This document shows, piece by piece, positions 17,952-52,278 of a DNA stretch of 64,000 bases; position 1 is the first letter of the stretch, and each line of letters begins with the position of its first letter. Source of the DNA: Punctularia strigosozonata HHB-11173 SS5. Taxonomy: Eukaryota; Basidiomycota; Agaricomycetes; Corticiales; Punctulariaceae. The notes below the pieces were generated by a model. That model did not search any database. It was not told the origin of the DNA and was given only the letters and a program-made list of their open reading frames with translations. The stretch covers positions 1-64,000 of the forward strand of contig NW_006767445.1 of assembly GCF_000264995.1 (NCBI RefSeq), given 5' to 3'. Both the position numbers and the translations under genes were made by a program.

Positions 17952-20418
17952 TTAAGAATCTATCTCTGATGACAGCAAAGGCGTAATGATTAGCGGAAGA
18001 TGGGGCTTCGCATCCTCCTGGCCTTTGACTGAAGGCACCATCACGTTGCCCAACCTCCACACGATTTCCGACTTGGACTGCTCAAACTTGAAATTGTGGA
18101 TCAGCATGTATATCACAGCCTCTGCAGGGTTACGGTGCTGCGTAAGTACAAGGGCGATCAACGACATTCCACAACTCACTCATCTCCAATTCCGAGAATT
18201 TGAAACCGCTGGCGTTATCGAGTCAAGTCAGTCATTTCACCAACTTCACATGACGTCTGCGACTCACATGCATGCGCGACTACCACCAAGAAACGTGAGC
18301 CTTTGATGACCGTCTTTGAGCATCTATCACAATCCATATCAAGATGAGCACTCACTGATTGGAATACACGCCAGGTATGTGTGCATCCGTGACGCTATCC
18401 GGGAGCGGCTCGAGCCAGCGGCCTGGTTTCCATTCCAGTGCATCGGGGCCCCAGAGTGCCTTGTTCCTGTTCGCCATCGCCATGCCTACGAATATACCCT
18501 GATTGTTCTTTATCGGCAGCTCGTGTATAGCAGTGCCATCCACGCCAATGGTGGGCGTTCGTAGGGGTATCACGATATCCTTACGTGCACTAGAGCAACG
18601 GTTTAGTGAGCTATAGTATTCGATCTATATGCAAGCTGGTGCTCACGTCCTTTGTACGAAGGGCACAGGAGCGTACCTAAGGAAATTAAAGGTATGCATG
18701 ACGTGCAGATGACGAGAGCTCACAAGCGTAGGGTTTCACGAATAATGCTATCAAGCAGCGGGAGGGACATCAATTGCTCGTAACTTGGTAACGTGTTTGC
18801 AAGCTCCACATGCAGTCCGCGGATCTCCTGCCGAAGCTCATCTTGAAGTTGAGGGTTTCCGGACAGCAAATGCAGTATACGAGCAAGTGCTGATGAGCTG
18901 TAGGTGTCCCTCATGAGTACGAGAATCAACTCTGTTCAACGCATTGGAGCATACGTGGTATCATATGCAGCGAATATGAGTAGACTATGGGGACGGAACG
19001 TCACTTCGAACGAAATATATGGATAAAATGAGCACCTACTTCATTTGTCCCAACAACTGATCCTCAGGCAGACGATCCTTTTCCGCGCTCGCCATATTTG
19101 CGCGCACTACATCTGTGTCATAGGCGATGCCGGTAGAAAGTCGGGGGGCTTACGAAGCGTCGTCATAATGTCCTTTCCGTGTGCTACCTGGTCGTACTCT
19201 TCGCCTTCCCCACGCATTATTGCCTGCTTCTTACGCTCATAAATTTCCTTGCTTGTCTCGTCCATCATATCGACAATGCTCTTGAGTGTTCGTACTGAGG
19301 GAAATGGAATCGCGTCGATGATCTTTCTTCCTAGTCCAGGTGGTAGAATGGCACTGATGTAGGGCAACATGATACAAAGAGGTGCGATGGGAAAAAGCGA
19401 CGGGCTGTTCGAACAGGTCTTGAGACGGCAATGACTGTCAGAGAGAACAAACGCACAATAGATTCTTTGCGGATTCGCTATATATGTTTGCTGCTCCTTC
19501 CTTCAGGGCATCAAAAGAATAGCCTAGTCCGCCGACTCCAATGTATTCCAAAGCGGCCCTGGAGCACCACTCCAGTATATCAATCTCAGATTTGGGTCCT
19601 TCCACGTGGCGTGTCAGAGCCCTACGTAACTGAAGAAACAGGATCTATGAGAGCGACTGGTCCATTTGCGGAGGACTAACCTGCTCGGTGATCGTGAAAA
19701 AGGTCGGGACTAGCGTGCGTAAATGCGCAGGAGAGAAGAGCGGGTTCAGCATCTTGCGTTGCCTGAGTACGTATACGTCAGCATAGGCGGAGACAATTAC
19801 CATCGGAGGCGGACCGTCTGTGTTGTTCCCCTGATCATTGTGATGAGTGTCGTTATTTTAGAACGCATAAACGGACGAGTGTACTTACCAAGGCTTGCAA
19901 CTAGACCGTTCCCAAATAACAGTCTCGATGTTCTTTGATGCGTATTTCAATCAGATACGATGGGACTGGAAAGAACAGAATTCATTCGTACTCAAGACTA
20001 TGGGCGCTTTCTTCAAAAACATCTTGGTCCTTGACCAGGACATGATGCAGTGCACGAGGATCCGTGAGATATATATGTTCGTCCTGAATGTTCAAGCTAA
20101 GGTGCGGTGAGACAGATAAGATCTTGAGCACAATACCCCAAAGAAGCCGTGAACCTTGACGGCAGACCCCATGTCACCAAGCTGTTGATGAAATGCGAAC
20201 CCGGAGGTATCCCATATTTGCCGGAAGTTACCTGCCATTCACTGTGAACGAGTGACATCTTGATGAGGGGTTGCAAGGAGCTACATACCGACAAACAACG
20301 ATGGGCTCGGCGGTCCGGGAAGATTTCTGAGGACTGATTTTACCACCACGCGCTTGTACATTCTCCACGTGCCCCATAGCGCCAGCACAAACGCGGAGAT
20401 CCCGATGACACCTAACAT
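17952..20418 (-). CDS. Cytochrome P450 monooxygenase (P450-A)
   Basis: A microsomal haem-thiolate monooxygenase of the type expanded in wood-decay basidiomycetes; the substrate cannot be read from sequence. The start at 20416-20418 opens an N-terminal membrane anchor (MLGVIGISAFVLALWG) followed by the hinge LPGPPSPSLFVG. Later blocks are LTDPRALHHVLVKDQDVFEE, SRLLFGNGLVASLG, HGKDIMTTL, RANMASAEKDRLPEDQLLGQ, the I helix LIFAAYDTT, the K helix IIRETLRL, PGRW in the PERF region, and the haem loop FLGGSRACIGFKFSELEMK. An intron splits the Ile codon right after the haem Cys, and a second follows at ELEM/K. The C-terminus ends at 17952. All exons appear open, so the gene is likely functional. It is the intact neighbour of the transposon-split paralogue at 21334-37394. 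Confidence 0.88.
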
Positions 20419-21333
20419 GAGCAGACGAGCGATGAGCAAAGATCGATGGCCACAGCGAACTGGGTGCTCTGCCTTTATATACCCAGGCATGAGAATCAAT
20501 GGCTTCATCGATATCCCGTGTGTAGCCAACCCAGAACACCTGTGTATCATTTAAGGAATCGTAAGCCGTGTTTACATCGCATGACACTAAGACGGATCTC
20601 TCACCGAGTGCTTCATTCATCATTCGCGGCGCGTCCGGCAGCGATGCTGGCATTCGGAACACAACGAGATAGGTCGGCATCGATCTTGTTCCATGCGAGT
20701 CAGGGAATACGCTTACTGAGTAAATGAAACTTCGCGCAGAATTGAACTCGTGGCATGGAGCGGGTGTAGTCAATGCTGTCGATCCCCTTTCCCTGGACAC
20801 TGTACGTGCTGCGTGGTTGATATCTCGAGCTGACATGTTAGCGCAGGCATCGTAGCGCAGGTCTGAGAGCACACAAAACGTCTACCTAGAGCTGCGTTGG
20901 TAAGTGATGTGAACGTTCCGACGAGACAAAGGGGGCGCCCACCAAGTCCCAACGGCACGAGCAGTTCCCGGCAATCGGAGATTGCGAAGCATCTATGGGC
21001 TACTATTCAAGGATCTTCATTCCGGGAATTCGTCGCCGAGAAGTCTTGCTGTACTCGCTCCCAAGTCTCATGCTGACAACGTAAGCCGGCACCCGAGCCC
21101 GACGGTGACATCGTGGACCGCGGTCAGACTGACCAATGGTTACCGGATAGTGCGGCGATCGAACCGACATGACGTCACGAGCTTCTACTTTCTCCGCTTT
21201 GTCCTGTCCGAGTACTGAGAAAGAAGGCATATTGTTGCATAACACGGGCTCAGAGTGCGGCGTACAAGGCAGAAAAAGTACGACAAGGTAGTAACCAGCA
21301 CCTTTCGGCCCCGCATCTGCACCTTCCTCGGAG
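20419..21333. other. Intergenic between two P450 genes
   Basis: This contains the promoter of P450-A (minus strand) and the 3' flank of the split P450. No other gene seen. Confidence 0.45.
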
Positions 21334-22467
21334 CTAACGATCGACCAAGCTGACTCGAAGAGGAAGCTGTGGATGGTCGTTATCCTGCCCCTTGATGTAC
21401 GGGACCAACACCGGAGTCATCTTCCACGATATTTCGGAAGTAGGAGGTTCGAACTTGAAGTTGTACAGCATCATGTAAAGCACCGTCTCTGTGGAGTTTG
21501 ATCAGTACGATCACTGCACAGAAGAACGGGCCACGCACTGATTTCAATCTCTGCGAACGTGAACCCGCTGGGTACCAGGAGGCGATGAGCGACGTTTTCA
21601 GGATTCGAGGCAGGTGGTGTCTTACATGCATGAACGACTTCCGGCAAGGAATGTCAACCTGGACAGCGAAGGCGTTTCAGTGCGACGCGAAGGGGGAGGT
21701 TATCAGTAACCCGCTCACTGATTGGCATAAACACTCGGTATCTTGGCGTCCGTTACCGTAGAGGGGAGTGGTGAGCGCCAGCGCTGAGGTTTCCACTCCT
21801 CGGCATCCGGTCCCCACGTGCTCTTGTTCCTGTTTGGACTCGATATCCCTATCCAGACGCTTTGGCCTTGGCGCACAGGCACTTCGTAGATGGATTTCCC
21901 ATCTGTGCCGATGACGGGAGTCGCGAGGGGAAGGACTGTGTCCGTCGTGGCACTATGAGATTATCAGCCGGTCACGTCCAGGGATCAACTATGATTGGCC
22001 AACATACACTCGCGACATATAGGGCGCCGGCGGGTGACTGCAGTCTCGATAATTGAGCGCATCGCTATTCGACGACCAAAGAACTTACAGTCGGAGAGTC
22101 TCGCGGATGACACTGTCCAAAATCGGCATCGACATTAATTGATCATAAGACGGATCGATATCGCCGAGCTGTTCACGCATATCATTGATCTCGTTGCGAA
22201 GTTCATCCTGCACGGCTTGATTCTTCGAAAGGAGGTATAAAATGCGAGCTATCGCGGAGGATCTGAGAGTAACGTCGCTTCAGTCGCGCTCATTAGAGAG
22301 TCGAGATACGCACGTGGTGTCGTAGGCTGCGAATATGAGCAATCTATCCCCAATCCCGTTTTAGTTGGACGCGATGAACAGATATCATAAACGGACGCAC
22401 GTCATCTGACCGATCACTACGTCTTCTGGTAGGCGCTCGCTCTCATCAACTTCCATGTTGGCCCGGA
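21334..22467 (-). pseudogene. Cytochrome P450-B, C-terminal half (separated from its N-terminal half by a transposon)
   Basis: Begins in the minus direction at an intron acceptor (22468-22470, TAG) with RANMEVDESERLPEDVVIGQ, then the I helix LIFAAYDTT, SSAIARILYLLSKNQAVQDE, the K helix SVIRETLRL, the exon TPVIGTDGKSIYEVPVRQGQ, WGPDAEEWKPQRW, and the haem loop FLAGSRSCIGFTFAEIEIK. The tail is VPYIKGQDNDHPQLPLRVSL and stops at 21334-21336. Exons are open, with haem Cys, K-helix ExxR and I-helix Thr kept. The missing first half lies at 36141-37394 on the same strand. Joining the two gives a collinear P450 with the same exon plan as P450-A. Coding parts are undamaged, but a 13.6-kb intron insertion very probably prevents normal expression. 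Confidence 0.9.
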
Positions 22468-22476
22468 CTACTCCAC

Positions 22477-22483
22477 CTTCAGC
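22477..22483. repeat. Target-site duplication, left copy (CTTCAGC)
   Basis: Identical to 36103-36109. Each copy directly abuts one end of the 13.6-kb element. Confidence 0.85.
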
Positions 22484-22495
22484 CCCAGTGAAAAC
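22484..22495 (+). repeat. Terminal inverted repeat, left
   Basis: CCCAGTGAAAAC, a perfect 12-bp match to the inverted right end. Similarity stops after that (GGGC versus AACG). Confidence 0.85.
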
Positions 22496-22780
22496 GGGCA
22501 ATTATGATACGGGATGTGCGGGATTGCAACATCCGAAGCACATAAGCGACAGAATCAGGCCGGTCACCAGAGATTGTGCACGGTATATCTGCCGAAGTAT
22601 GGGAACGTGCTCACGCAACAGATTGCGATGAATTAGCGATATCCGTGTATACCGCGTGCAACCTCCACGAATCTATGCATTCTATTGCATTCTATTCTAT
22701 ATGATACTGGCTCATCCATATCCTCTGGACTCGAGGGCCGGTACTAGTGTATACTACAACTGAATCACTTAACTGAACAC

Positions 22781-25700
22781 ATGGTGGATTTGTGCCAGTG
22801 CGAGGCTGTGTGCAAGTACGTACCCTGGCTCCTCCCACACCACTCTGTAGTGTGCGCCAACTGCAGAATGTCTGCGTCAGCCGGCGCTCCGGATCTCTAC
22901 TATTGTGGCTGTCTCGCCTGTAAAGAGAAAGGCACGATGATGCGCTCTCGTGCAACCTGGTTCAGGCATCGAGATGCATGCGAGCAGCAACGGAAGGACG
23001 GCCTGATACCTGCGCTCACCGAGAGTCAAGCTCTACAGCAACCTTTCGGGCAGCAACACTCTGGACCCCACCTTGGTGTCCCACACCCTACAGAACATCC
23101 CCGACGACGTTCTCGGTCTCGGAGCACATCACGCCAAATCGGGGACAGGAGAACGATCTCTGTGACAGCGCACGATCATAATGATAACGGACAAGAGCTG
23201 ACGACTGGTGGAGATGGCGTTCAGCTCGCAGAAGATGATGCAGTGCGTATAGGCTCCAATTTGACATCCTGAAGTCTCTCTAACATACGCTTCTACTGAA
23301 CAGCTGTTGCATAACCATGGCAGTCCCCCCGTCCCCCGCTCAACTTCTCCCCCGCAGGACTGTGCCCAACCACATCTCACGCCTGCCCGTGCCCATCGAC
23401 TTGGCCCTCTGCCCCGTGAAAACCCTAAGGACGGTGTGCTGCCGCCATCGTCGACAATCCCAGCGTTGAACACCAGCCTCCAGTTCATTGAGGCCCTTCG
23501 CTCCACTTCGGCTCTTGAGGACACAGGTCTTGAAGATGATACGATTCATCGCATACGAAACCCCTTCCGGACTCCACCGCTGCTCACACCCGACGAGCAG
23601 CTGTCAATTGACATATTCCTCGCCGTCACAGACGGATCGGAGAAGATCTATGATCTCACATGTAAAGCTGTTATGCGGTGCCACCCGGGAGATTGTCTAC
23701 TCTCGTACTATCTTGTCAAGAAAAAGATTGCAGATCTCACTGGCGTGTACCCTATAATCACTGACATGTGTCCGAACTCGTGTGTGGCTTACGCGGGTCC
23801 ATATTGCAATCTTGAAGAATGCCCTCACTGTCATGAACCACGCTATGAGATTGCCAACAGCAAGCGAAGTACGCGACAGCAGTTCAGCACGTTCCCCGTT
23901 GGCCCTCAGATACAAGCACGTTATTGTCACTCGGACGGGGCTCGTCTCATGCGTCATAGAGCTGGAATGATGCAGGACATACTTGACGAGCTCGAAGACA
24001 ACCACTTGCTCGAAAATATCGAGGACATCTACCACGGGTCCTTGTTCTGGGATGCGTATCAAAGAGGTCGTATTGGTGGCGATGATGTTGCCCTCATATT
24101 CTCGATGGACGGGGCCCAGTTGTTTGAGCACAAGGCGTCTAATTGTTGGATCTACATTTGGATCGTGGCCGACATGCCGCCAGACCACCGCTACAAAAAA
24201 AAGTACATCATTCCCGGAGTTATCGTTCCTGGACCAAACAAACCAACAAATCCCGACTCTTTCCTTTATGTCGGGCTGCAGCATGTTGTTGCACTTCAGA
24301 AGGAGGGCCTCCAGATCTGGGACGGCGAGCAACGGAGAATGTTCACCTCATATCCATTCATTTTTCTAGGCGAAGCTGATGCTGTTGGAGCACCCGAGCT
24401 TAACGGATATGTTGGTCATAGTGGAAAACAAGGATGCCGAGTACGATGTGGTTATGTGGGACGTCGAAAACCTGGTGGTGGTCACTACTATGCAGTTTCC
24501 CTCAAACCTATTGGCTACGAAGAACCAGGATGCGATCATCCAGATGTCGAACAGCCAACAGAGGCTCAGACTGAGGAAGAGTATATCGCTGATGTCTGCA
24601 AAATTGTTGGCTCCCAGACAATAACTCGCTATGCAACACATCGCCTGGAGACGGGCTTGGTCAAGCCCAGTATATTCCTTGGTCTTCCTCGAGCACATCG
24701 GCTTGACATTCCCGACCTTTTCTGCGGTGACATCATGCATGCTTTTGGTTTAAATATCACGGATCTCATATACAAGCTTCTCCGTGGAATGATTGACTGC
24801 GACACCAGGAATGGTGATCACAAGTCACTGTGGCGAACCTGGGCTGTTCTGGCCAGTGAACAGGAATGGACTCGACATGAGGAGCTCGTTGCATCGGCAA
24901 AGCAATATCTTCCCGGATTCTTTGACAGAGCACCTCGCAATCCGGCGCAGAAAGTTAATAGCGGATATAAGTGTGTCGAGTTTCTGCACTGGATCTTTGG
25001 CCTTGCTCCGGCATTCCTTCATGGAGTCCTACCAGAAGAATTCTGGCGCCATTTCTGCAAGCTTGTTGCTGGAACTCGTAGTGTATTCAAGCGGAAGAAC
25101 ACACGGACCAGTCTACACGTGGCGCACAATCAGCTTTTCGAATTCAAGCATGGTCTTGAGGAAATGTATGCTGAACGGAAGATATCCCGTATGCATTTCA
25201 TGCCGCAGGCGACACATGGTATCACACATGGGCCCAGTGACACAATCCGTGTTGGACCATTGGTGTGCAGTTCACAGTTCGCAATGGAACGGACTATCGG
25301 TGACCTTGGTGCAGAACTGAAGCAGCCGTCCAACCCCTTTGCAAACCTTGCTCAGCGTGCACTTCGACGTGCACAGGTGAACAGTCTCAAGGCAATATAC
25401 CCTTGCTTTGACTACGAAGCCTCCAATCAGCAAACACAACGGCAAACCCCTCACAAGGCAGTGCAATGTGGATTTACATTGCTTCATGCGCGAGAAGATC
25501 GAGCACGTCCCGTTCATGACTGCGAAGCATTGGTGATCGAGGCATACTTCGAGACTATTGGTGGCGCAGCTCTTCGGTCACGCTGGATACAGGAAGGCCG
25601 TTCCATTTGTAGATGGGCTCGTGTACAAACACCTAGCGGGCAAATAATCAGATCCGCATGGAAGGAGCTTACGCGGAAAACTACACGGATTAGCCGTAAC

Positions 25701-26133
25701 ATCAGGGTACATCCAACATTTTCTGTTATTGAATTTATGCTAACTTAAGCCCTAGTTCCGTGACATTGATGGAGGGGGAGGCATTCACTATGCCGAAGTT
25801 GTGTACTATTTCTGGTACGAGGTCCATGGGTTTAAGCGTGGATTTGCGCTAGTCCGCAAGTATGGCCCAGTAAATGCTGAGCTGCTAGAGGCGTCATCAG
25901 GAACAGTATGGGCAGCACAAACCATAGGTGACCAAGGGCTTCTCGTCATAGGTGTTGAAAACATCATTGCATGTGTCGCAATGATCCCGCACACGTTCGG
26001 ACTTGGACCACAAGACAACAGACAATCAATAGAACTCTATTTTGTCATGGACAAGATATGGGATGCCATAGGCGAGATGGGTGAGATCATTAGTGCAAAT
26101 GACGACGATGAACGCAGCGATGAGGAGAATTAG
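22781..26133 (+). CDS. Tnp2-type transposase (CACTA/EnSpm-like)
   Basis: DDE-type transposase that would cut and paste the element by acting on its terminal repeats. Three exons (22781-23242, 23304-25706, 25756-26133) with GT-AG introns of 61 and 49 nt, each exon a whole number of codons, give about 1080 residues with no internal stop. The N-terminus carries a Cys/His cluster (CQCEAVCKYV, CANC, CGCLACKEKG, WFRHRDACE), probably a zinc-binding DNA-contact region, followed by a basic Arg/Ser stretch (RRRSRSRSTSRQ). The core has the family blocks FSMDGAQLFEHKASNCWIYI, PDHRYKKKYIIPGVIVPGPN and NPDSFLYVGLQHVVALQKEG. The last exon holds the C-terminal region IHYAEVVYYFWYEV...SSGTVWAAQ and an acidic tail. 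The gene sits 297 bp from the left terminus, as expected for an autonomous element. It is a Tnp2-like family rather than KDZ or Plavaka, whose signature blocks are absent. Confidence 0.88.
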
Positions 26134-26755
26134 ATGTGGTCAGACCTGTATGTAGCACCTTATGACCGTGTGACCCATAGTTAGGGTCCATGCATCGCAA
26201 CCGGTTTTTCACGTTCTCAACCCAGTACATCCTGTCCAAACCTACCGTATTACTTCGCTTCATGCAACATTCACTGCACTGCTGAAGCCTATGGGTGGCT
26301 ATATGACGAAGATCAATATGATGAACGGAGCTTTGTTCACAGCAACGACTACGACACAGCGACAGCCGTGACAGCGAGACCGTGTTTGAATGGGTTTACT
26401 TTCGCCAGGGCCATGGGCACGGGCCTTGGTAAGGTCGTGCACCATCTGGGCCTGCTCAGATTGGATAGGTCGGAGGAACGGGTGTGCGTCTATAACGGCA
26501 CTGTGCCCAGCCGTTGCAAGATGAACCCCGGGACGACCTCGCATGCTAACCCCCCATTCAACCTACGTGTCCCAAAGTCATCGTGCGCGCTTCCACCATG
26601 TTTGACACGATCCGGCCCATGGTATGTTCTATATGCTTCTCCTGTTCCAACAAAACACTCTGATACTGTGCTCAGGGTATGACATCGCATTTCACACCTC
26701 AGGCTGGTTGTCACACCAAACTAGCTCGCGACATTTTGGCCTTCAACCCCCCTAC
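26134..26755. other. Non-coding interior of the transposon
   Basis: No gene recognised between the transposase stop and the tandem repeat. Confidence 0.5.
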
Positions 26756-27180
26756 CAACGTGGAATGCGCATTTTGCTTTGTTCGGCCTACACGCACGCC
26801 TCAGACGGGTCGCCGCTTGTCATCGCGTCTTGCGCACTCGCGCAAGCGCGCATAGCTCTTCGGCCTCAAACGGGCTTGGTCTCGACGCTACGGGATTCCC
26901 CTCAATGCCAATCACGACCACCAAAGCACGCGTCTCGCGTGGCTTGTTCAATGCGCACAACTCGGCCGCGTCTCCACTCGCATCACGACTCGCGCATGCG
27001 CACGCAGCTCTCCGGCCTTTGATGGCAACGGTTTCGACCCTGCAGGTCGCCCTCAACGCCACCTAACAACGTGGAAGTGCGCATCTTATGCGGTTCGGCC
27101 CACTCCCGCGAATGGTACGCGTCACCCTTCGCTACCACGGTCGCGCGCGCGCACGCGCAGCTCTCCGGTTTTCAATGGAG
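26756..27180. repeat. Degenerate tandem repeat, period about 153 bp
   Basis: AGCTCTYCGG recurs at 26854, 27006 and 27160 (spacing 152 and 154), each followed by related sequence that includes CCCCTCAATGCCA or GCCCTCAACGCCA. CAACGTGGAA with TGCGCAT and GTTCGGCC recurs at 26756 and 27067, two periods apart. The block is CG-rich in GCGCGC motifs and stops just before the fatty acid synthase homology begins. Confidence 0.7.
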
Positions 27181-27259
27181 CAAGAAGTGGGCCCCGCGCC
27201 TCGTCAAGACTAGGTGAGCATCTATCGTCCGTTTGCGTAACGATTTGCTGAGGAAAGCG

Positions 27260-30200
27260 CAGCGACGGCACGGTGCACCTCGACACACCGTTCTCTCGCC
27301 TCTTGGGCAAGCCCCCGATCATGGTGGCGGGCATGACGCCGACGACCGTCAAGGCCGGCTTCGTCTCCGCAGTGCTTTCCGCGGGGTACCATGTCGAACT
27401 CGCCGGCGGCGGACACTACAACCCCGCCGCGCTGCGCGCCAAGGTCGCCGAGATCCAGACCAAGATCCCGCCGGGGATCGGGCTCACGCTGAACGCGCTG
27501 TACATCAACTCGCGCCAGTTCACGTTCCAGTTCCCGCTATGGCAGGAGATGCGCCGCGAGGGCCTCCCCATCGAAGGCTTCTGCGTCGCGGCCGGTATTC
27601 CGACCACTGAGAAGGCGGGCGAGATCATCGAGGGCCTCCGCAGCGCCGGCATTCGCCACGTCAGTTTCAAGCCCGGTTCGGTGGATGGCATCCGTCAAGT
27701 CGTCAGCATCGCCGCGGCCAACCCCGACTTCCCCGTTATCATGCAGTGGACCGGAGGACGCGCCGGTGGCCACCACTCGTGCGAAGACTTCCACCAGCCC
27801 ATCCTGTCGACCTATGGCACTATCCGTCACCAGCCTAACATCGTTCTCGTTGGTGGCTCTGGCTTCGGCGGGGCTGACGACGTCTGGCCCTACCTTACCG
27901 GCGAGTGGTCTGTGGAGAAGTTCGGCGCGCAGCCGATGCCGTTCGACGGCTTCCTGTTCGCGTCTCGCGTCATGGTCGCCAAGGAGGCACACACCAGCCC
28001 GTCCGTCAAGGACCTCATCGTCGCCGCCTCCGGCGTGGACGATGCGCAGTGGGAGGGCACGTACGTGAAGGAGACGGGTGGTATCCTCACCGTCCAGTCT
28101 GAGCTCGGCGAACCGATCCACAAGGTCGCGACGCGGGGCGTGAAGCTCTGGAAGGAGTTCGACGAGACCGTCTTCAAGCTGCCGAAGGAGAAGCGCATCG
28201 TCTGGCTCAAGGAGCGCAAGTCGGAAGTCATTGCGAAGCTTAACAGAGACTTTGCCAAGCCGTGGTTTGGGTGGAAGAAGGGTGACGTGGTCGCCGAGGA
28301 CATCGCCGATATGACTTACGAGGAGGTGCTGCTGCGCATGGTGCGCTTGATGTACGTCGCGCATGAGGGACGATGGATCGATACCTCGCTGCGGAATCTC
28401 ACCGGCGACTGGCTGAGACGCACGGAGGAGCGGTTTACGGGTGTGAACGGCGGGAAGCCGAAGCCGAGCATGTTGCAATCCTTCACGTCGCTTGACGAGC
28501 CGCTGCCGTCCATCGAAAAATCCCTCAACCTGTACCCGCTCGCCAAGGAGCAGCTGCTGGCAGTGGAGGATAAGGCGTACTTCCTCACGATCTGCCAGCG
28601 TCCTGGCCAGAAGCCCGTTCCGTTTATTCCCGTATTGGACGCGTCCTTCGAAGTCTGGTTTAGAAAGGTGCGTCTTCCTAGTTTGTGTTTTGATCATCAT
28701 GTCTGACGGTGGTTTCAGGATTCGCTCTGGGCCGCGGAGGACATCGAGGCAGTATTCGACCAAGACCCGCAGCGTGTTTGCATCCTGCAAGGTCCCGTTG
28801 CGGCGAAGCACGCTACCATTAAGGACGAGCCTATCAAGGACATGCTCGACAATATCACCTCATTGCTCGTTGACAAACTCGTTGAGCGCCAATACGCCGG
28901 CGACAAGAGCAAGATTCCCACCGTCGACTACCTCGGTTCTGCGCCTGCTGTTGCTTCGTTCCCTGCGGGCGTTAACGCCACACGAGATGAGAACTCAGTG
29001 TCCTTCAGCATCGGGTCGGACGTTCCGTCGACAGAGGCCTGGCTTGAAGCCCTTGCAGGCCACAAGCTTTCATGGCTTTGCGCATTCCTCGCCTCGACGA
29101 CCATCGTTCAGGGCACGTCCTACATCGACAACCCCGTCCGCCGCCTGTTCGCGCCTCGTGCGGGCCAGAAGGCAGTTATCCGGCTCAGCGGCGGCTCGCC
29201 GATCGGCGTCAAGCTGTTCGGTGCCGCCCGTTCCGAGGGTGTTCACAAGCCTGCGTTCGAGGCCGTGGACGTCAAGTACGACGCCGCGCAGCGGCTTATC
29301 AACCTGACGATCTTCGAGGATCGTCGCGACGCTTCCGTGCCGCTGTTGCTCCAGTTCAAGTACACCCCCGAGACCGGCTACGCTCCCATACGTGAGGTCG
29401 CCGAGGGTCGCAACCAGCGTATCAAGGAGTTCTACTGGAAGCTTTGGTTCGGCAATGATTCGACTCTGCCTGCGCTCGACGTGCACGAGACTTTCGTCGG
29501 TTCTGAGGTTCGCATCGAGGCGCCAGACATCGAGTCCTTCTGCGCCGTTGTTGGTAACCAGGGCGAGGCGTTCAAGACCACCCGGACCGAGGTCGTCAAG
29601 GCTCCCATGGACTTCGCCATCGTTACAGGCTGGCAGGTATGTCATATCCATATGTTTTCATGTGATCAGGCGGGAGCTGAGTGCGCGATTCTAGGCTATC
29701 ATGAAGTCGATCTTCCCTGCATCTATTGATGGCCATTTGCTAAAGCTCGTCCATCTGACCAACGGATTCAAGATCGTCGACGGCGCGAAGCCGCTCAAGG
29801 CAGGCGATATCTGCAGGGCCGAGGCGAAGATTGTTTCCGTCGTCAATGGCGATGCCGGCAAGACGGTGAAGGTCAAAGGTCATGTTTACAGCCAGGGCAA
29901 GCCCGTCGTCGAGGTCGTGTCGTCCTTCCTCTACCGTGGACGGTTCACCGATTACGAGAACACCTTTGAGACCACCGAAGAACCCGATTACCTCGTGGAG
30001 ATCCCCAACGACGCGGCGGTCGGCGTTATCCAGAGCAAGGAGTGGTTCGAGTGAGACGATGACACCAAGCCCCTTCAAGCCGGTACCGGGCTTATCTTCC
30101 GCATCAAGTCCGAGATATCATTCAAGAGCAAGAGCTCGTACCGCTCGCTGACCGTCACGGGTGACGTTTTCGTCCGCGACCAGTTGAAGCGCCTCGTCAA

Positions 30201-32828
30201 GGTCGGCACCGTCGACTTCGATCAAGAGGACTGCCACGGCAATCCGGTTCTGGCTTACCTGCAGCGTCACGGCAAGCCGCAGGGCTTGCTCTCCCCTCTG
30301 CCAAACGATGGTTACTCGCTGTCCAATGAGCCAGCGACCTTCGTCACTCCGTCGACCAACGAACCCTACTCCAAGGTGTCCGGCGACTTTAACCCGATCC
30401 ATATCAACCCTTACTTCTCGAACTATGCCTCTCTTCCTGGTACCATAATGCACGACATGTGGTCGAGCGCGGCCACTCGCCGCTATGTCGAGACGATCGT
30501 TGCTCAAGGCAACCCAGACCGCGTCAAGTTGTACGTCTTCATTGTGCGTTCATCGACTGCTTAATACTGACATTGCATCAAGGTACGAGGTCGCCTTTGT
30601 GGGGATGGTCCTCCCCGGGGACGAACTGAACGTCAAGCTCCGCCGCATCGGCATGAGGAACGGCAACATGGCAATCAAGGTTGAGACCTTCAACCAGCGT
30701 GGGGAGAAGGTCCTTGACGGCTCCGCCGAGGTCGCGCAACCTACCACTGTTTACGTCTTCACTGGCCAGGCTCGCAGGAGCCGGGCATGGGCATGGAGCT
30801 TTACAGCATCTCGCCAGCTGCTAGCGCTGTGTGGGACGCTGCCGACGCCCATCTCACGACTGTTTACGGGTTCTCGGTCATCGATATCGTCAAGAACAAC
30901 CCCAAGGAGAAGACGGTGCACTTCGGTGGTCTCAAGGGCCAGGCTATCCGCCAGCGTTATATGGAGATGACTTACGACACAATGGATCGTGACGGCAATA
31001 TTCGGACGCTCCCGTTGTTCGGAGACATCAACATTCGTTCGCCTCAGTACACGTTCAGCCACCCCAACGGTCTCCTCTTCGCTACTCAGTTCGCTCAGAT
31101 CGCGCTCGTCGTGGTGGAGAAAGCGGCGTTTGGGTGTATGCGTGCGAAGGGGTTCGTGCAGCCTGACTGTGCATTCGCCGGTCACTCGCTCGGCGAGTAC
31201 TCCGCGCTCGCGTCCATCGCCGACGTTTCTTCCCATCTCATCTCTCGTCGACGTCGTCTTCTACCGTGGTATCACTATGCAGCGCGCTGTGGAACGCGAC
31301 GAGCACAACCGCTCCAACTACGCTATGTGCGCGGTTAACCCGAGCAGGATATCGCATTTGTTCTCAGATGCCGCTTTGCGTGAGGTTGTTGACGCGATCG
31401 CACATCGCACTGGCTGCCTCCTTGAAATCGTCAATTACAACGTCGAGGTACGGCTCGGATACTTCTCAGCGTTGTCAGTCTGCTCACTTGAAATCATAGG
31501 GTCAACAATATGTCACTGCTGGCGAGCTGATTGCGCTGCAGACGCTCACTACCGTGCTCAACTACCTGAAGGTCCAGAAGGTTGATATTGCGAAGGTATG
31601 CGTCCCTTCTGGATATCGTTGTTCTCTCCCTCAACGCTGCACGCAGTTGACGGAGCAGCTGAGCATCGAGAAGGTCAAGGAGATGCTGGCGGAGATCATC
31701 GACTCGTGCTACCAGCGCTCGCAGGAGCTGCAGGAGGCCGAGGGCTACATTACGCTCGAGCGTGGGTTCGCGACAATCCCGCTTCCTGGCATCGACGTGC
31801 CATTCCACTCGCGTTACCTGTGGGCCGGTGTTATGCCGTTCCGTGCATGTAAGCCTGCAATGCCGCATTCGGTTGAACTACGCTGACGACGCCTTTACGT
31901 GACAGATCTGTCCAAGAAGATCAACGCTGCTCACCTGAACCCCGACATGCTCATCGGCAAATACGTCCCCAGTCTGATTGCCAAGCCCTTCGAAGTCTCT
32001 CGCGAGTACGCGCAGATCATCTACGACCAGACGTCCTCGCCTCGTCTCGACAAGCGGAACTGGGAAGAAGAACAGTGGGCCGCGCCGCACCAGCGCCGGA
32101 AGCTTGCCTACGCGATCCTCGTCGAGCTGCTGGCCTACCAGTTTGCATCGCCCGTGCGATGGATCGAGACTCAGGACATCCTGTTCACCCGCTACGACTT
32201 CGATCGCTTCATCGAGATCGGTCCCTCGCCGACGCTCACGGGCATGGCTTCGCGCACTCTGAAGGCGAAATACAAGAGCCAGGATGATTCGCATGGCCGC
32301 CGCCGTACTATCCTTTGCCACGCTAAGCACACCAAGGAGATTTATTACTAGTTCGAAGACGCTCCGGAGGAAGCCGCAGAGTCACCCGAGGAAACGCCCA
32401 TAGCGGCTCTCGTGGCAGCAGTCGCCACGCCCGTAGCTGCTGCAGCCGCACCTGCTCCTGCGGTTGCTGCTGTCAGCTCCCATCAGGCCGATCGAAATCC
32501 TCACCGTGATCGTCGCGCAGAAGCTGAAGAAAGCGGACGAGGTGTCTTTGTTGAAGTCAATCAACGACCTGGTGAGCGGTAAATTGACGCTGCAAACGAG
32601 ATTCTTGGCGACCTTCATCTCGAGTTTTCTTCGGCGCCGAAGAAGGGTGAGGAGCTGCCCCTCGAACAACTCGGCTCGACTTTGACCGGTACTGGCGGCC
32701 TGGGTAAATACATCTCTGTCCTCGTTTCTCATCTCATTGGTGGGAAGATGCCTGGCTGCTTCAACATCTCCGCCATCAAATCGTACCTCTCAGAATCATG
32801 GGACTTGAGGCCCTCTTGTGTGCGATGA
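27260..32828 (+). pseudogene. Fatty acid synthase fragment (ER-DH-MPT-partial ACP), decayed
   Basis: Piece of the cytosolic type I fungal fatty acid synthase. It begins at DGTVHLDTPFSRLLGKPP, the start of the enoyl reductase domain, so the N-terminal acetyltransferase part is absent. The ER (to about 28665) has AGMTPTTV and QWTGGRAGGHHS; the dehydratase region follows, with SGDFNPIHINPYF (about 30390); the malonyl/palmitoyl transferase has [10 protein letters not shown] (about 31190). From there it runs straight into FEDAPEEAAESPEE and an Ala/Pro linker and an ACP, as in single-chain basidiomycete enzymes. Homology ends at SWDLRPS (about 32817). Introns are retained (28666-28719, 29636-29695, 30531-30582 and others). 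Damage: TGA for Trp at 30052-30054, TAG for Gln at 32349-32351, frameshifts near 30770, 31228, 32477 and 32598, and Leu in place of the phosphopantetheine Ser (SGKLTLQ against the usual GGKSTLQ). Not functional. Lies wholly inside the 13.6-kb transposon. Confidence 0.93.
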
Positions 32829-33022
32829 TCATGTAGCTGTAGCCAGTTGAATGATATGGTCCATGTATGTAGTTTGTCAAAAACTCGGTGCGAGAGCACG
32901 TAGCTACCCGGTCGGGAAATAACAGTGTGATCGCCGGAGTCGACACGCTACTCCTCGAACCGCCGGCGTGACCTGTTGGTTGGTTACCTCAAGGTCTACA
33001 CCCCTGTCATTCCACACACCTG

Positions 33023-35452
33023 ATGCAGCATAACACCTTGCCCTTACCGCGTTTGGGATTATTCAATGGAACTTCTCCTCTGACCATCTCAACAGATGTG
33101 AATTATCTGACACCGACCGGGTCACCGAACCCGAACATTATGGCATTGCATGATGAGAACTCTGCGTCTTTGCATGGGCAGGTCAGTTCATGCTGACTTT
33201 CTGTTCACAAACTGCTCTGATCAGTTTGTGTAGACCACTTCGGGGCTTCGCTCACCGTTCACATTTGCTGGTAGCGCCAGCCCGGATGTGTTGATCCAAC
33301 AGCGCATAGGCTGTGCCGATCACGACACCCTGGTCCGCTGCAACAATATGGCATACCTTGGAGTGGTAGCCCGTCTGCAATGTGTACAGCAGGAGAGGGA
33401 TGTCCTACAGATTCGTCTTGACGAACAAATGTGAGACATGTACCTTTATATGATGGCGAACTAACCTTATCTCCTGGTAGACTTCTTTACGACCGTCTTT
33501 TGAATCGTGTCTCCGGCGCCCCCGTATCGACTCCATTTCTCCTTGGATCTCATATGACCCTTCCTACCGGAGCCAATATATCGGTCTGTGGAAAAGTGAA
33601 GTATTGGAATTCAGCATCGTGGACGAGGACCGAGCAAGGCGCACCTGGTAGACCAGGCCCACATCTTGACGATGAGAACATCGCTCAGCGTTACATCGAA
33701 GATGCCAACGGCAATCCGGTTTCGGGCGCAGTTGCCGCAGCTGCACGGGCTACGACTAACGCATTGCTGTTATCGCTTGCGCAGAATGATCAAGTAGCGC
33801 CATCTGCCTCTAGACTCACATACGAGGCCCTCTGCTACCTACATAGCAACCTGGCAAAGCAATTCCCTATGCTTCTCTTCTGCGATGGAGGCATGTGGAA
33901 GACCACTGTCCTCATTGGTCAGATATATTCCGGATTCATGAAGACTCACCGAGCTAGGGTTGCAGCTAGTGCTAAAGTCAAATCCGAGGAGCAGAAGGTA
34001 GAAGATTTCGATATTCCTTTGTCGCAGGAGTCTAGCAGCAAAAGGACGAAGCATACTCGTACTGAGTCAGTAGATATACGACCTGCGCCCAAGAAGCAGA
34101 AAGCGACCACACCACAGCCACACACTCCTGCGACTCCAGATCCTGCTCTGCCAGCGACCATCATCCCATCGATCTCTATCACGCCTGGTACCCCGCATCA
34201 TCAACCAACGCAGCTTCAGCCTAGTCCACCATCCTCTACGATCTCATCTCTCTCATGTCCCATAGTGGGGCCCGATGTGCAAGCCTCATCAAAAAATGGT
34301 GACGACTATACTATTGCCACTCCACTTGAGGACCAAGAGTCACAGAATGGCCCCGTGAGGACGATCACGGACGACCTCGAAGCTTCAGAGCAAGATCCTT
34401 CAGCTGGGTCACCAGACGACAACACCATTGTCCCGCAGGTCCCAGGGCCGATGTCATGGCGTAGGTTCTCGTCTCTATATCAGACATCCATAACTGACTT
34501 GTAGCCCTCTGCATAGCATCTCATTCGGCATCCTCTCCATCAGATTTATCGCCGCCGGAAACCGAGGCCGCAGTGCAGTCAACACCTGCGCCTCTGGACA
34601 TCTCCGGCTCAGCGGTAGAAACCAGTCCTGGTCCCTCTGCTAGCATGAGCCCGATGCGCACAATGGACACGGCAGCCTTGGACTTGCTGAGTGACGCCGC
34701 AGCATACACGTCAAGTTCTACGAAGCTGCAACCGTCTTCAGAGGGCTCACTAGTACGTCCAAATGCAGTGCTGCGTGATTACAGATATGATTATACCTGT
34801 CCCAGCAGATCGTACTTCCTGAATCATCCTATACACGGAAACCGGGTTCCTTGTATGTACAAAGCCTTCGTCTGCATTCAATATGTGCCTGACAGTTCTT
34901 GTGAACAGCCCAAACCCAGTTCGTCGGCTGACCCGTAGTTCGAACACCGATGATGACCAGGAACATGCCGGGGCAGCCACCGAGCTGAGCCAGTGTGCCG
35001 TTCCTCCAGATCTGCCCTCCAAGGTTGTTAAGGGTAGAGCCAGGAAGGCTGCAGGATCTGACGCACTTTTGTCCACCAAATACAAGGCAGGAACCATTAG
35101 CTGGCAGTATGTCATCGTGTATAATTGTCGCTACTTGAAGAACTGATCACTCCTTCAGGTCACTTCTTATGCGGGATATGATTAGTGTAGACGCCAGCGT
35201 GACATACAAAGAATATCAGACGAAGTCCGCGTCCATTGCTACAGATGATGTCGAGTATCTGAAGGTATGTTATTCTCTAATGAAGGAGATGACGTCTCTC
35301 TCACAATGAACACGTTGCAGAGACTTAAGACTGAAGCAGCAGACATGGTGCGGCTGCTCATAAATGACAACCTATACGCCATCTGTACTGACAACCTGCG
35401 TCCTGAATTGTTAGAAAAAGGCCAAAAAGACAGGCTAGCATGCTCTATCTGA
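33023..35452 (+). CDS. Unknown protein encoded by the transposon, eight exons, 687 residues
   Basis: Function unknown. Eight exons (33023-33181, 33234-33430, 33481-34460, 34505-34752, 34809-34852, 34909-35106, 35159-35264, 35321-35452) total 2064 nt and stay open throughout with matching splice phases, which is strong evidence for a real gene. The N-terminus (MQHNTLPLPRLGLFNGTSPL) leads to a coiled-coil-like segment (VARLQCVQQERDVLQIRLDE). A conserved-looking domain follows (ALLLSLAQ, LCYLHSNLAKQFPMLLFCDG, GMWKTTVLIGQIYSGFMKTH), then a basic, NLS-like stretch (SSKRTKHTR ... APKKQKATT) and about 300 residues of Pro/Ser/Thr-rich disordered sequence. The C-terminus is a charged helix. Its place near the right end of a Tnp2 element parallels the second gene (TnpA-like, DNA-binding) of plant En/Spm elements, so an accessory transposition or silencing-evasion protein is a reasonable guess. 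It could instead be captured host cargo. Confidence 0.8.
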
Positions 35453-36090
35453 AGTTGACAGGACATGGAGAGTTCCGGGGACGTTGCGATGATGTTTTGT
35501 TGATTTGGCTTCGGACCGGGAATTCATAGGATTGTACTAATGCATATTCGCAGAGATTTGGGGCTGCCGGATGGCGCAGAATGGTAGCGGATTTAATTTG
35601 GGTAGTCAGGTAGTATTACAGCCGTGCTAATCCTCCCATATTGCGTTGAGGGTCTTTGTATCCATCGTCATCCCGAGTGATTCTGATGAGCTGGCGTACA
35701 CACATGATGATAAGCGTTGCCCTGCAAGGAAAACTGCTCGCAATCCGTTCTCGTCCGACGGGATTCGAACTCTGACAGTATCAAAGCGGATGTGCTCGAA
35801 TGTTTGTGCTTCGGCATCCGCTGACAATCTGTACGGTACGCGACATTCATGCTACGCTTACACAAGTGATCCCCCACGAGGTATCCGGGAGAACCGGAAA
35901 GATACTGAAGGATTCCTTGGCGCTCTGTTGCGAAGCAGTGGCTATGTAACTTAGTCTCAAAATCGTGGATGATTGCAGGTGCCTCCGGATGATAGCGAGG
36001 TCCTGCGAGGCCGCTTCACTCTGGTGCTTCTTCCGCTTATCCTGTGATTTCTCCTGGGATATCCTGTACAATACGCTCTCAAAATCCGTT
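35453..36090. other. Right subterminal region of the transposon
   Basis: No gene. Contains a hairpin at 35785-35822 with perfect 8-bp arms (AGCGGATG / CATCCGCT). Possible binding sites for an element-encoded protein cannot be defined from one copy. Confidence 0.5.
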
Positions 36091-36102
36091 GTTTTCACTG
36101 GG
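36091..36102 (-). repeat. Terminal inverted repeat, right
   Basis: GTTTTCACTGGG, the exact reverse complement of 22484-22495. Confidence 0.85.
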
Positions 36103-36109
36103 CTTCAGC
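36103..36109. repeat. Target-site duplication, right copy (CTTCAGC)
   Basis: Matches 22477-22483. On the gene's strand it reads GCTGAAG, in the branch-point/acceptor part of the interrupted intron. Confidence 0.85.
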
Positions 36110-36140
36110 CATGACACGGGACGTGAACAACGCCACCCAC

Positions 36141-37394
36141 TGAGGATCGAGAGTATGTCCTTCCCGTTCGTCAGAGTCTCCTTCATGTCACCATCGCCGC
36201 TCAGGAGCGCCCGTTTTCTCTTCCTGTATATATCGACGCTGGTCTTCTCCATGGTATCGATGACATATTTCAGCTCTTGGACCTCGCGAATAGGAAGCAA
36301 TTCCACAATCCACCTCCTTATCTTAGCGGGGAGCGGGGTCGTCAGCGCCGGAAGAAACTGTATCAGCGGGAAATACGGGAACGCGTTAGGGCTGCGATGT
36401 AAGACATGAGCCATCATCAAAATGGGGTGATGTCACTCGTACAGGAGGCTTTCCGCAGCGTGACTGTATACGTTATCCGCGTTCTCTCCTAATGCGCCGA
36501 ATGAGTGCCCTAGCCCTCCTACTCCAATGTATTCGAGCGCGGATCTAGAAGACCAGTCCAAGACGTCGACAACAGTTTCGCCGTTCTGGACGAGTTTCGT
36601 GATGCCAGCGCGTAGCTGATAGGTGCACATCAGAAGTCTAGTAAGAGAAGTTCTGAGTCGGGGTATGGCCTACCTGTTCGGTGACCTGAGAGAACACGGG
36701 CTTCATCTGGCGGAGATTTGACGTCGAAAAGACAGGATTGAGCAACTTGCGCTGCCTTTAGACCAGTGAGGTTGATGATCGAAAAGTGTAGCAGCCACAA
36801 TTACTTTTTATGCTGTTCCCCTAGCAAGAGATCGTCACCCATACCGCTCCCTAGCAAGACAAGGATAACATACCGACGCTTCCTATCAGGCCTTGCCCAT
36901 AGAACAATCTCGATGACCTGCCCATGAGTCAGCAAGTGACCCCATAGAGTCGAGACAGAGGGGCTCACTCGACAACGCCTAAACTCTCTTCGAAAAGGTC
37001 CTGATCTTTCACCAGGATGTGATACAGAGCCCGAGTATCGGACACATACAGCTGCTCATCCTGAATCGATCCGTCAGCCCAACCCCTCTCCGTTTGTCCA
37101 GGAAGAACGAGTCACCTACCCCCATGAGTCCATGCACTTTGACGACAGATCCCATGCATACAATGTTATCGTGTAACGGTCCAGCTTCGTAACCCAGAAG
37201 CTGCTGCATATTGCCTGGGCACGTTGAATTGGTAGATGTAGCAGAAGACGGGATCAGGACTCACCATAGAACCACGATGCCGGTGTAAGGCTGGGTAGGG
37301 TCTTTACCATTGACTTGACGATAGCTTTCTTGTAGAGCGTCCATATCCCGACGACGACAATTCCGGCACTCAACAGAATGGCTGCGTTGTACAT
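36141..37394 (-). pseudogene. Cytochrome P450-B, N-terminal half (separated from its C-terminal half by a transposon)
   Basis: The start at 37392-37394 opens a membrane anchor (MYNAAILLSAGIVVVGIWTL) and the hinge LPSLTPASWFYG, a looser form of the usual LPGPP. Then come MQQLLGYEAGPLHDNIVCM, SDTRALYHILVKDQDLFEES, the glycine-rich SRLFYGQGLIG, QRKLLNPVFSTSNLRQMKPV with FSQVTEQ, VLDWSSRSALEYIGVGGLGH, and IDTMEKTSVDIYRKRKRAL ending NGKDILSIL. The last exon ends at 36141 with a GT donor at 36140. No I helix, K helix or haem loop follows here; those are at 21334-22467. Splicing across the reconstructed 47-bp intron gives SILIRANMEVDESERL, matching P450-A at the same place. No stop codons were seen in these exons. 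Confidence 0.9.
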
Positions 37395-49937: not shown

Positions 49938-52278
49938 TCAGTGGTGCAGATCCGTAACCTTCATTGGCATGTGAGGTATCTCTTTCTCGTGCCCTTCTGT
50001 CGTTGGAGCAACGATGGTTGACACCGGGAAGAAGATTTTAGCGTCATCGGGGAGCTGAAACGAGAAAGCCTCCAATAAAACAGACAGAACAATCTCTGCG
50101 CAAATCGGATCAGCGTGTAATATCATAAACTGATTAAAAACCGCACTCATTTCGAATTGCGCGAGCTTGAATCCGCTGTAAGGTAGCTGTCAGTGAACGA
50201 GGATCATGTCAGGCGAAAGGATAGAGAGACGTGCATGCAAGATCGGCCACCGCCCAAGAAGGTCATCCTAAACGTATCATGAGCATGTTACTGTTCGAGG
50301 CAAAATGTTGTACATACAAATGCGAGTAGACGGCCGGAATCTTGGCATGAACCAATGCGTCTGGGAGGGGGTTAAGCCATCGCTCAGGGCGCCATTCGTC
50401 GGCATCCGGTCCCCAAAGCGCTTTGCTACGATTGATAGCACCAATTCCGATAATAACGTTCTGATTGTCTCGGACGTGAACCTCGCGGATTTCTTCACCG
50501 TCGGTACCTCGGATCGGGAACATGAGCGGCACGACGCCGTCGCTGATGGCACTGCGGAAACACGTAAATATACACAGAAAGGGAGGTGAGGGAGACTTAC
50601 GTCCGAAACACGAACGGAAGTGGCGGGAAACTACAATGTTGGATCATAGGCGTTGTGGTATCAGAGTAGGAATCTCCAGCTTACAGCCTCAAGGTCTCTC
50701 GACAAACTGCATCAAGATACGGCAGTGAGGAAAGCGTATCGTACGACAGGTCCCGGTTCTCGCGCGCCTCGACGATCTCCTGCCTCAGGCGTTCTTGGAC
50801 CTCTGGATGGGAGGCAAGCAAGAAGAGGGTGCGAGATATCGCGCCTGTGGTGGTGTCCGTGGCAGCGAAGATTAAGGTGCTAATCGTACAGTCAGAAATG
50901 TGCACGAGCAGATCTACAGGCAATTGCGTACTTTATTTGCCCAAACAGCTCGGACTCAGTGAGACGCTCCTTTTCGGAAGCAGACATGTTCGCTCGCACT
51001 GAGTAAAAGACTTTGTGAGCCACTTTACATATTTTTGGTAAAAAATGAACTCACTGAGAGCGCCGAATATGTCGGTACCGCCGCCAATCTCTTCGATCAC
51101 TGCTTGGTCCCCTATTTCGAGCGCCTTCCTCTTCTGCGCATACACTTTCATGGCCTCCTCGTTCAAGGTATCCGCGATGCGTTTTGCTTCTTTCAAGGGC
51201 GGTACGGGTGAGATATCGATCAGGAATCGGCGGAACCACGCCGGCCCGAGCTTCGTCAGAAGTGGAAGGAACTGGCGGACGATCTGGAGCTTGAAGACGG
51301 TGGGAATCAGTCGCTTTGCGTTTTCGGCGTAGCGACTCCGAACGTTCGGTTTCAACGCGTCGAACGAGTATCCGAATCCGGCTACATGATGCCAACTATC
51401 AATCAGAGCAGGGAAGACATACATCGAATGGATACGTGCCTTCTCCAACTATTTCCAGAGCTGCACGTGATATCGGATCGAGCATGTCGATCTGCCTGGA
51501 TCCGTTAGACAGGTGGAGCTTGATCATATCGCGCAGCTTAGGCGGCAGCGTCAACGAGTGAGGATTACGATGTATCGATCAAGCTTGCCCACCTGGAAGG
51601 CAACATCCTGGAAGATTGGGCCGATGTTCCGCATATGTGATTGGGAGAACACCGGGTTCAAGATCTTCCTCTATACGTCATGACTGTCATATCAGTATAC
51701 ATAAGGATACGATACAATTCCCGGAACATACCTGTTTGCGATGTTGCTCGCCTACTGTTGCCAGTAATCCCTCGCCAAAGATGATCTTCAACCCCCTAAA
51801 AACGGGTGAACATTCTGTATCGATAGAAGGAATAACGACGAAGTTGGTAAACGTAGCTGTCTCCTGAAACACCTCCTGGTCCTTCACAACGATATGATGA
51901 AGAGCGAGCGGATCCATAACGTAGATTTGTTCATCCTAAGCATATTCATTAGACGCAAGGGTGATGGCGTGAAGAACAGTAGACATACACCAAAGAGACC
52001 GTGGACCTTCACGGCGCTTCCGTACTTCTCGTTCAAACTGTAATGGAAGTCCCATCCCCTCGAATTGAAGAGCTGACCAAAATTGCCTAGGACAAGATCA
52101 ATACTTCGAAGCATGGCTCAAGAGCTGCCGTCGATCTCTAACCCTTGAGCCAAGATTCGCGTGGCGGGCCCGGTAGGTTATGCTGGACGACCTTCCGCAC
52201 CGTCCGATCATAAACCCTCGATGCGCCCCAGAGCACTGCAATCCAGCCAACGACGTATAGGATCTCGAGGATTGCCAT
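49938..52278 (-). CDS. Cytochrome P450 monooxygenase (P450-D)
   Basis: Same family and exon plan as P450-A and P450-B; substrate unknown. The start at 52276-52278 opens an N-terminal anchor (MAILEILYVVGWIAVLWGAS) and LPGPPRESW. Blocks in order are GWDFHYSLNEKYGSAVKVHG, MDPLALHHIVVKDQEVFQET, IIFGEGLLATVGEQHRKQ, RKILNPVFSQSHMRNIGPIF, GFGYSFDALKPNVRSRYAEN, GGGTDIFGAL, RANMSASEKERLTESELFGQ, the I helix LIFAATDTTTGAISR, the K helix AVCRETLRL, DNQNVIIGIGAINRSKALWG with PERW, and the haem loop MTFLGGGRSCIGFKLAQFEM. The intron that splits the Ile codon after the haem Cys appears to use a GC donor (at about 50245) instead of GT. The tail ends PHMPMKVTDLHH. No stop codons were found in the exons. Confidence 0.88.

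Follow-up and report, generated by a model that had tools for sequence, protein, structure and literature searches.

A 13.6-kb DNA transposon with a 7-bp target-site duplication in a short, pre-existing intron of a P450 gene of Punctularia strigosozonata, most likely inactivating the gene

In Punctularia strigosozonata HHB-11173 SS5 (assembly GCF_000264995.1), positions 1-64,000 of contig NW_006767445.1 were analysed on the forward strand, and this whole stretch of 64,000 nt is called the window below. One minus-strand P450 gene in it is divided into an N half of 294 aa and a C half of 249 aa, with about 13.7 kb between them. It is almost certain that a transposon inserted into an intron that the P450 already possessed, and, given this insertion, loss of function of the P450 is predicted with good confidence. 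The combined reading, in which the transposon entered a pre-existing 47-nt intron, generated a 7-bp duplication and most likely inactivated the P450, is thus held as probable. Gene disruption by itself is ordinary. What appears to be new here, judged from the bases at the junctions, is that the duplicated bases hold a likely branch point and that the CCCAG end of the element offers a potential acceptor. The features that define the insertion are as follows.

22484..36102, no strand assigned: DNA transposon of 13,619 bp; its terminal inverted repeats are perfect over 12 bp and its target duplication is 7 bp long
22484..22495, plus strand: left terminal inverted repeat CCCAGTGAAAAC, from the sequence
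36091..36102, minus strand: right terminal inverted repeat CCCAGTGAAAAC, from the sequence; CCCAG as seen from the P450 donor
22477..22483, no strand assigned: left copy of the target-site duplication, CTTCAGC, from the sequence and the flank test
36103..36109, no strand assigned: right copy of the target-site duplication, CTTCAGC (GCTGAAG on the gene strand), from the sequence and the flank test
36141..37394, minus strand: P450 N half, ATG at 37394, 8 exons, 294 aa, from spliced alignment, translation and Pfam
21334..22467, minus strand: P450 C half of 249 aa (counted from behind the split codon) in 8 exons, from spliced alignment, translation and Pfam
36103..36140, minus strand: part of the split intron on the donor side, 31 nt plus one duplication copy; donor GTGGGT at 36140
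22468..22483, minus strand: acceptor side of the split intron, GCTGAAGGTGGAGTAG; copy of the candidate branch point plus TAG acceptor
17976..20424, minus strand: neighbour P450-A; its intron at 19153-19107 (47 nt, phase 1) falls at the codon of the split intron
49941..52278, minus strand: neighbour P450-C; its intron at 51054-50999 (56 nt, phase 1) falls at the codon of the split intron

The stretch 22484-36102 is a cut-and-paste DNA transposon, as identified by its terminal inverted repeats and target duplication: the inverted ends are identical at 12 of 12 bp and the flanking duplication at 7 of 7 bp. The whole window was searched for inverted pairs with perfect 12-bp arms at a distance of 1-20 kb, and among the 88 obtained the element pair was the only one with a flanking direct repeat of at least 4 bp. 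In ten first-order Markov controls, 69-103 inverted pairs were found in each and a 7-bp flank in none. The count within 22400-36200 was 29 inverted pairs, and no nested element was seen, the other pairs in the window having no flanking repeat of at least 4 bp when perfect 12-bp arms were tested. A second copy of the element's end pair was not found in the window. Other delimitations of the element were tried and dropped: with an 8-bp duplication (CTTCAGCC) one G would be left over at the right end, duplications of 3 bp (AGC) or 2 bp require asymmetric or unmatched ends, and with CA..TG ends (22486-36100) the flanks no longer match.

The two halves of the P450 gene complement each other. In the Pfam search, the N half covered positions 1-212 of the p450 profile (PF00067, E 1.1e-14) and the C half, within its first 198 aa, positions 253-421 of 462 (E 6.1e-35), in agreement with a preliminary description of this DNA, in which two same-strand halves were said to be each without the other's part. 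Spliced alignment to P450-C, a template in which a few residues were guessed, covered template residues 6-303 with the N half (identity 118/289, no frameshift or stop) and residues 301-564 with the C half (identity 123/262). The N half terminates in KDILSIL and one base of a split codon, while the C half contains the motifs AAYDTT, ETLR and FLAGSRSCIG, the last of which fits FxxGxRxCxG, the haem-binding motif of P450. The alignment of the C half initially required a frameshift at 21503, which was read as a missed 50-nt intron (21538-21489). This intron was accepted because, among the 18 splice pairs listed, it was the one to restore a P450-like sequence up to the stop at 21334. The coding exons were also described beforehand as open on both sides; this holds for the N half, in which no lesion was found, and for the C half once the 50-nt intron is placed, so that both halves are open in the gene models, with 1,629 coding bases free of lesions. 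GT-AG ends were imposed by the gene models, and GT-AG at the 14 remaining introns of the split gene is therefore no evidence. A codon-usage gene finder recovered only fragments in the two halves.

The P450 genes of this region are clustered, P450-A and P450-C being close by, so that two separate P450 genes or pseudogene pieces might flank the element by chance. This explanation is extremely improbable, since the two halves complement each other exactly in their coverage of the P450 profile and the break coincides with the codon of a conserved intron. On the minus strand, the preliminary description correctly placed the donor GT (36140-36139) and the acceptor TAG (22470-22468), and removal of 22484-36102 together with one CTTCAGC does give a 47-nt GT-AG intron with a codon split into A and TC and the translation SIL-I-RANMEV, which is properly aligned with MTTLLRANMAS of P450-A. 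The same restoration of a conserved intron in phase, and the matching 12-bp ends and 7-bp duplication exactly at both junctions, argue against an assembly artefact that fused two haplotypes, or two paralogues, at a repeat, and we consider such an artefact very improbable.

Both P450-A and P450-C have a phase-1 intron before the RANM codon, at a position identical to that of the split intron, and in P450-C this intron (51054-50999) was also recovered by the codon-usage model, which uses no template. The restored intron is as long as its counterpart in P450-A (47 nt). Since the two neighbours share this intron position and phase, the element is read as having entered an existing intron, and the split intron is, judged by this shared position, older than the insertion. 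Without the element, the gene would extend over 2,435 nt, of which 800 nt belong to its 15 introns; with this share, a landing in an intron is unremarkable and would occur by chance in about one case in three. The three related minus-strand P450 genes (17976-20424, 21334-37394 and 49941-52278) lie within 35 kb, and the halves of the split gene are 45-58 percent identical to P450-A. Other genes observed in the window are an AA9 polysaccharide monooxygenase with a CBM1 domain (48908-49663, plus strand), which adjoins P450-C, and a laccase exon (60939-61580, plus strand), which matches PDB laccases. Together with the fused fatty acid synthase carried by the element, these genes point to a wood-decaying Agaricomycete as their likely source.

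On the gene strand the duplicated bases read GCTGAAG, and the CTGAA within them, which in the empty intron precedes the end of the acceptor by 11 nt, is a fair candidate for the branch point and likely serves as such. Among the 41 other introns modelled in the three P450 genes, which are 47-61 nt long, CTNA occurs within 5-35 nt of the end in 34; the stricter CTRAY is present in 16 of the 41 and absent from the split intron. After the insertion each flank has a copy of the candidate branch point. The copy on the acceptor side is intact, as is the TAG, and the distance from donor to acceptor is 13,673 nt. On the donor side, the duplicated branch point is followed by the CCCAG of the element end, which gives a possible intron of 43 nt. 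By computation, use of this acceptor adds 83 further codons before a stop, 13 CAG/TAG acceptors in the element are located 43-369 nt from the donor, and retention of the intron adds 20 codons before a stop, four of these codons being entirely within the element. Against the CCCAG acceptor, it should be considered that 43 nt is shorter than every one of the 41 modelled introns, and that its branch point would lie 7 nt away, closer than in any intron with a sole CTNA (minimum 11 nt); distances of 7 and 8 nt are those of second candidates only.

A fungal spliceosome that handles introns of about 50 nt would most likely fail to join the native sites 13,673 nt apart. Transcripts from the P450 promoter would then either keep the intron with its stop or be spliced into the element, for example at CCCAG with a 43-nt intron, and the protein from either type would be without the haem-binding half. 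As the interrupted intron is far longer than the modelled ones, truncated transcripts are expected and seem more likely than excision of a 13.7-kb intron, and because the predicted protein is without its haem-binding half, the split allele is probably null.

The alternative is that the P450 still works, the whole 13,673-nt intron being excised, perhaps at a low level or only under methylation silencing as with soybean TgmR*. The donor, the branch-point copy and the acceptor are intact as this would require, and the halves are open, as they would be under continuing selection, or equally if the insertion is very young. Nevertheless, we regard this alternative as unlikely: such fungi seldom have long introns, none of the 41 introns modelled in the three P450 genes is outside 47-61 nt, and the element offers 13 CAG/TAG acceptors nearer to the donor. 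A precedent for it is TgmR*, a CACTA element of 13,024 bp in the second intron of R, a MYB gene of soybean; accurate excision of TgmR* at a reduced level is reported in the accessible part of PMC4219821. This is likewise a very large CACTA-type element within an intron of an otherwise intact gene. However, TgmR* has CACTA ends, a 3-bp duplication and a long plant intron, and its splicing was demonstrated, whereas the outcome in Punctularia is predicted from sequence (PMC4219821, available in part). The different outcome favoured for the split gene, inactivation, has a soybean parallel in the gene F3'H. F3'H itself is a P450. Intron 1 of this gene contains Tgmt*, a 20.5-kb CACTA element for which loss of function has been suggested, as stated in the available portion of PMC2613891. 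Like the present element, Tgmt* is large, looks autonomous, belongs with the tnp2-type elements and lies in an intron; however, the intron is 4.1 kb long, and the 13-bp CACTA ends and 3-bp duplication are unlike those of the present element (PMC2613891, same portion).

The insertion was also said beforehand to be recent relative to gene decay, a claim that is weakly testable: the open exons fit it, but dating by synonymous sites fails. Between the split gene and P450-A, pS is 0.81 and 0.84 and pN is 0.35 and 0.27 for the two halves, with 134/293 identical residues in the N half and 145/249 in the C half, so that the synonymous sites are saturated and date nothing. The 1,629 coding bases without lesion give a rough bound of less than about 0.9-1.5 percent for neutral divergence since the insertion, a bound which depends on the assumed indel rates and is void if the gene is still spliced.

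The element carries the following features, all on its plus strand.

22781..25748, plus strand: transposase gene; the frame from ATG 22781 ends at 23272, and the main 827-aa frame is 23265-25748; exon ends approximate
26839..27178, plus strand: 35-nt unit present three times in diverged form, spaced by about 152 nt, from the sequence
27176..32825, plus strand: fused fatty acid synthase piece with introns, from about beta 554 to about alpha 259; broken
33422..35146, plus strand: second element gene, with a 360-aa frame at 33422-34504; additional exons may extend it to about 35146

The transposase gene, which like the cargo is antisense to the P450, is tnp2/CACTA-like by sequence. Its 827-aa frame matched Pfam Transposase_21 (tnp2) with E 5.7e-6 and 26.1 bits, under the curated cut-off of 28.6, and this was the sole Pfam family found up to E 10, with no KDZ family. 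No match was obtained for the frame in NCBIfam or among viral contigs, and the search against PDB gave two weak matches (E 0.056 and 0.83), neither of them a transposase. In the numbering of the frame, the residues D282, D372, H(3)H at 651 and E675 agree with the CMC pattern as given in the accessible parts of PMC12730594 and PMC4592977. The cysteines between D372 and E675 form GCRVRC, that is C(3)C, unlike the C(2)C of the CMC pattern, and the sole CxxC of the frame is at 186, ahead of the first D. An AlphaFold2 model of 603 transposase residues, made without an alignment, had a mean pLDDT of 31.4 and was discarded. The 33422-34504 frame of the second gene matched no Pfam or NCBIfam family; its product might be a DNA-binding partner of the transposase.

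Between these two genes, homology to fatty acid synthase begins at beta residue 554 and continues to alpha residue 259. The end of beta (2003-2057) and alpha 3-90 are in a single frame, so that the source synthase gene was a fusion. The matching frame shifts between beta 1687 and 1690 and again at 1832, an in-frame stop follows alpha 90, and the carrier-protein part is spread over more than one frame. Because of these frame changes and the stop, the cargo is, by its reading frames, a decayed fragment that would give no working enzyme, and the decay looks older than the insertion. The piece is internal to its gene and GC-richer than the element's own genes. The 35-nt units, 152-153 nt apart, sit exactly at its 5' edge and may mark how it was taken up. 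No CACTA-type element with fatty acid synthase cargo was found in the titles and abstract openings of the literature searched, which is a weak negative.

The element combines CCC..GGG ends, a tnp2-like transposase and a 7-bp duplication, features known from a single copy at the scale of the window, and it was compared by description with known families. In the part of PMC12730594 available to us, EnSpm is described with a 3-bp target duplication and CAC..GTG ends, and the wider CMCT clade with 2-5 bp and mostly CA..TG ends. The transposase signature of EnSpm/CACTA (CMC) is related, with the acidic triad and the H(3)H before the last E; however, the present element has 7 bp and CCC..GGG in place of 2-3 bp (2-5 bp in the wider clade) and CAC..GTG or CA..TG (PMC12730594, same part). 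Plavaka, for which that part gives a 2-3-bp duplication and ends TGT..ACA (A) or CATCA..TGATG (B), also has a related signature but differs from the element in both ends and duplication (PMC12730594). Kyakuja (KDZ), common in mushroom-forming fungi, shares the 7-bp duplication according to the same excerpt; its ends, however, are CA..TG without inverted repeats and its KDZ transposase is unrelated, whereas the element has CCC..GGG ends with inverted repeats and a Transposase_21-like protein (PMC12730594). TRC elements (SmTRC1 and the TRC of Aedes aegypti), as far as the accessible text of PMC1636069 describes them, have CCC ends, 2-bp duplications and lengths of 4.5-9.2 kb. The CCC ends are shared with them, their Transposase_21 domain has a below-cut-off counterpart in the present transposase, and the Aedes end CCCAGTCAAC resembles CCCAGTGAAAAC of the element (PMC1636069). 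However, TRC elements are animal elements and much shorter, and their duplication is 2 bp, whereas here it is 7 bp and the adjoining 2 bp are unmatched (GC on the left, CT on the right).

In Cryptococcus, CMC elements with 3- or 2-bp duplications and KDZ elements with 4-8 bp have been reported in introns and exons, according to the available part of PMC12810828. The insertions of CNIRT6, CNEST and KDZ elements into FRR1 are likewise basidiomycete DNA transposons within a gene, but the CMC elements make 3- or 2-bp duplications, and the available part of that account mentions no large gene cargo (PMC12810828). A search of titles and abstract openings yielded no CACTA-type element with a 7-bp duplication, again a weak negative. 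On these partial descriptions, the element is placed in none of CACTA, Plavaka, Kyakuja and TRC. It may be a new variant, and with one copy at hand the 7 bp may be characteristic of a family or peculiar to this insertion. A more far-reaching proposal, which we consider quite improbable, is a separate CACTA-related lineage in mushroom-forming fungi, with CCC ends, a 7-bp duplication and branch-point-like targets in short introns. In such a lineage, the doubled branch point and the CCCAG acceptor would make a ready splice into the element with each insertion, yielding a host-driven transcript.

If a tnp2-type transposase truly makes 7-bp duplications with CCC ends, the element would be an exception to the rule of a 2-5 bp stagger in CACTA-related transposons. 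The broken synthase cargo shows that a DNA transposon of such a fungus carries an intron-containing piece of a host gene. The locus as a whole is a simple natural experiment on the ability of a fungal spliceosome to span 13.7 kb with all signals intact.
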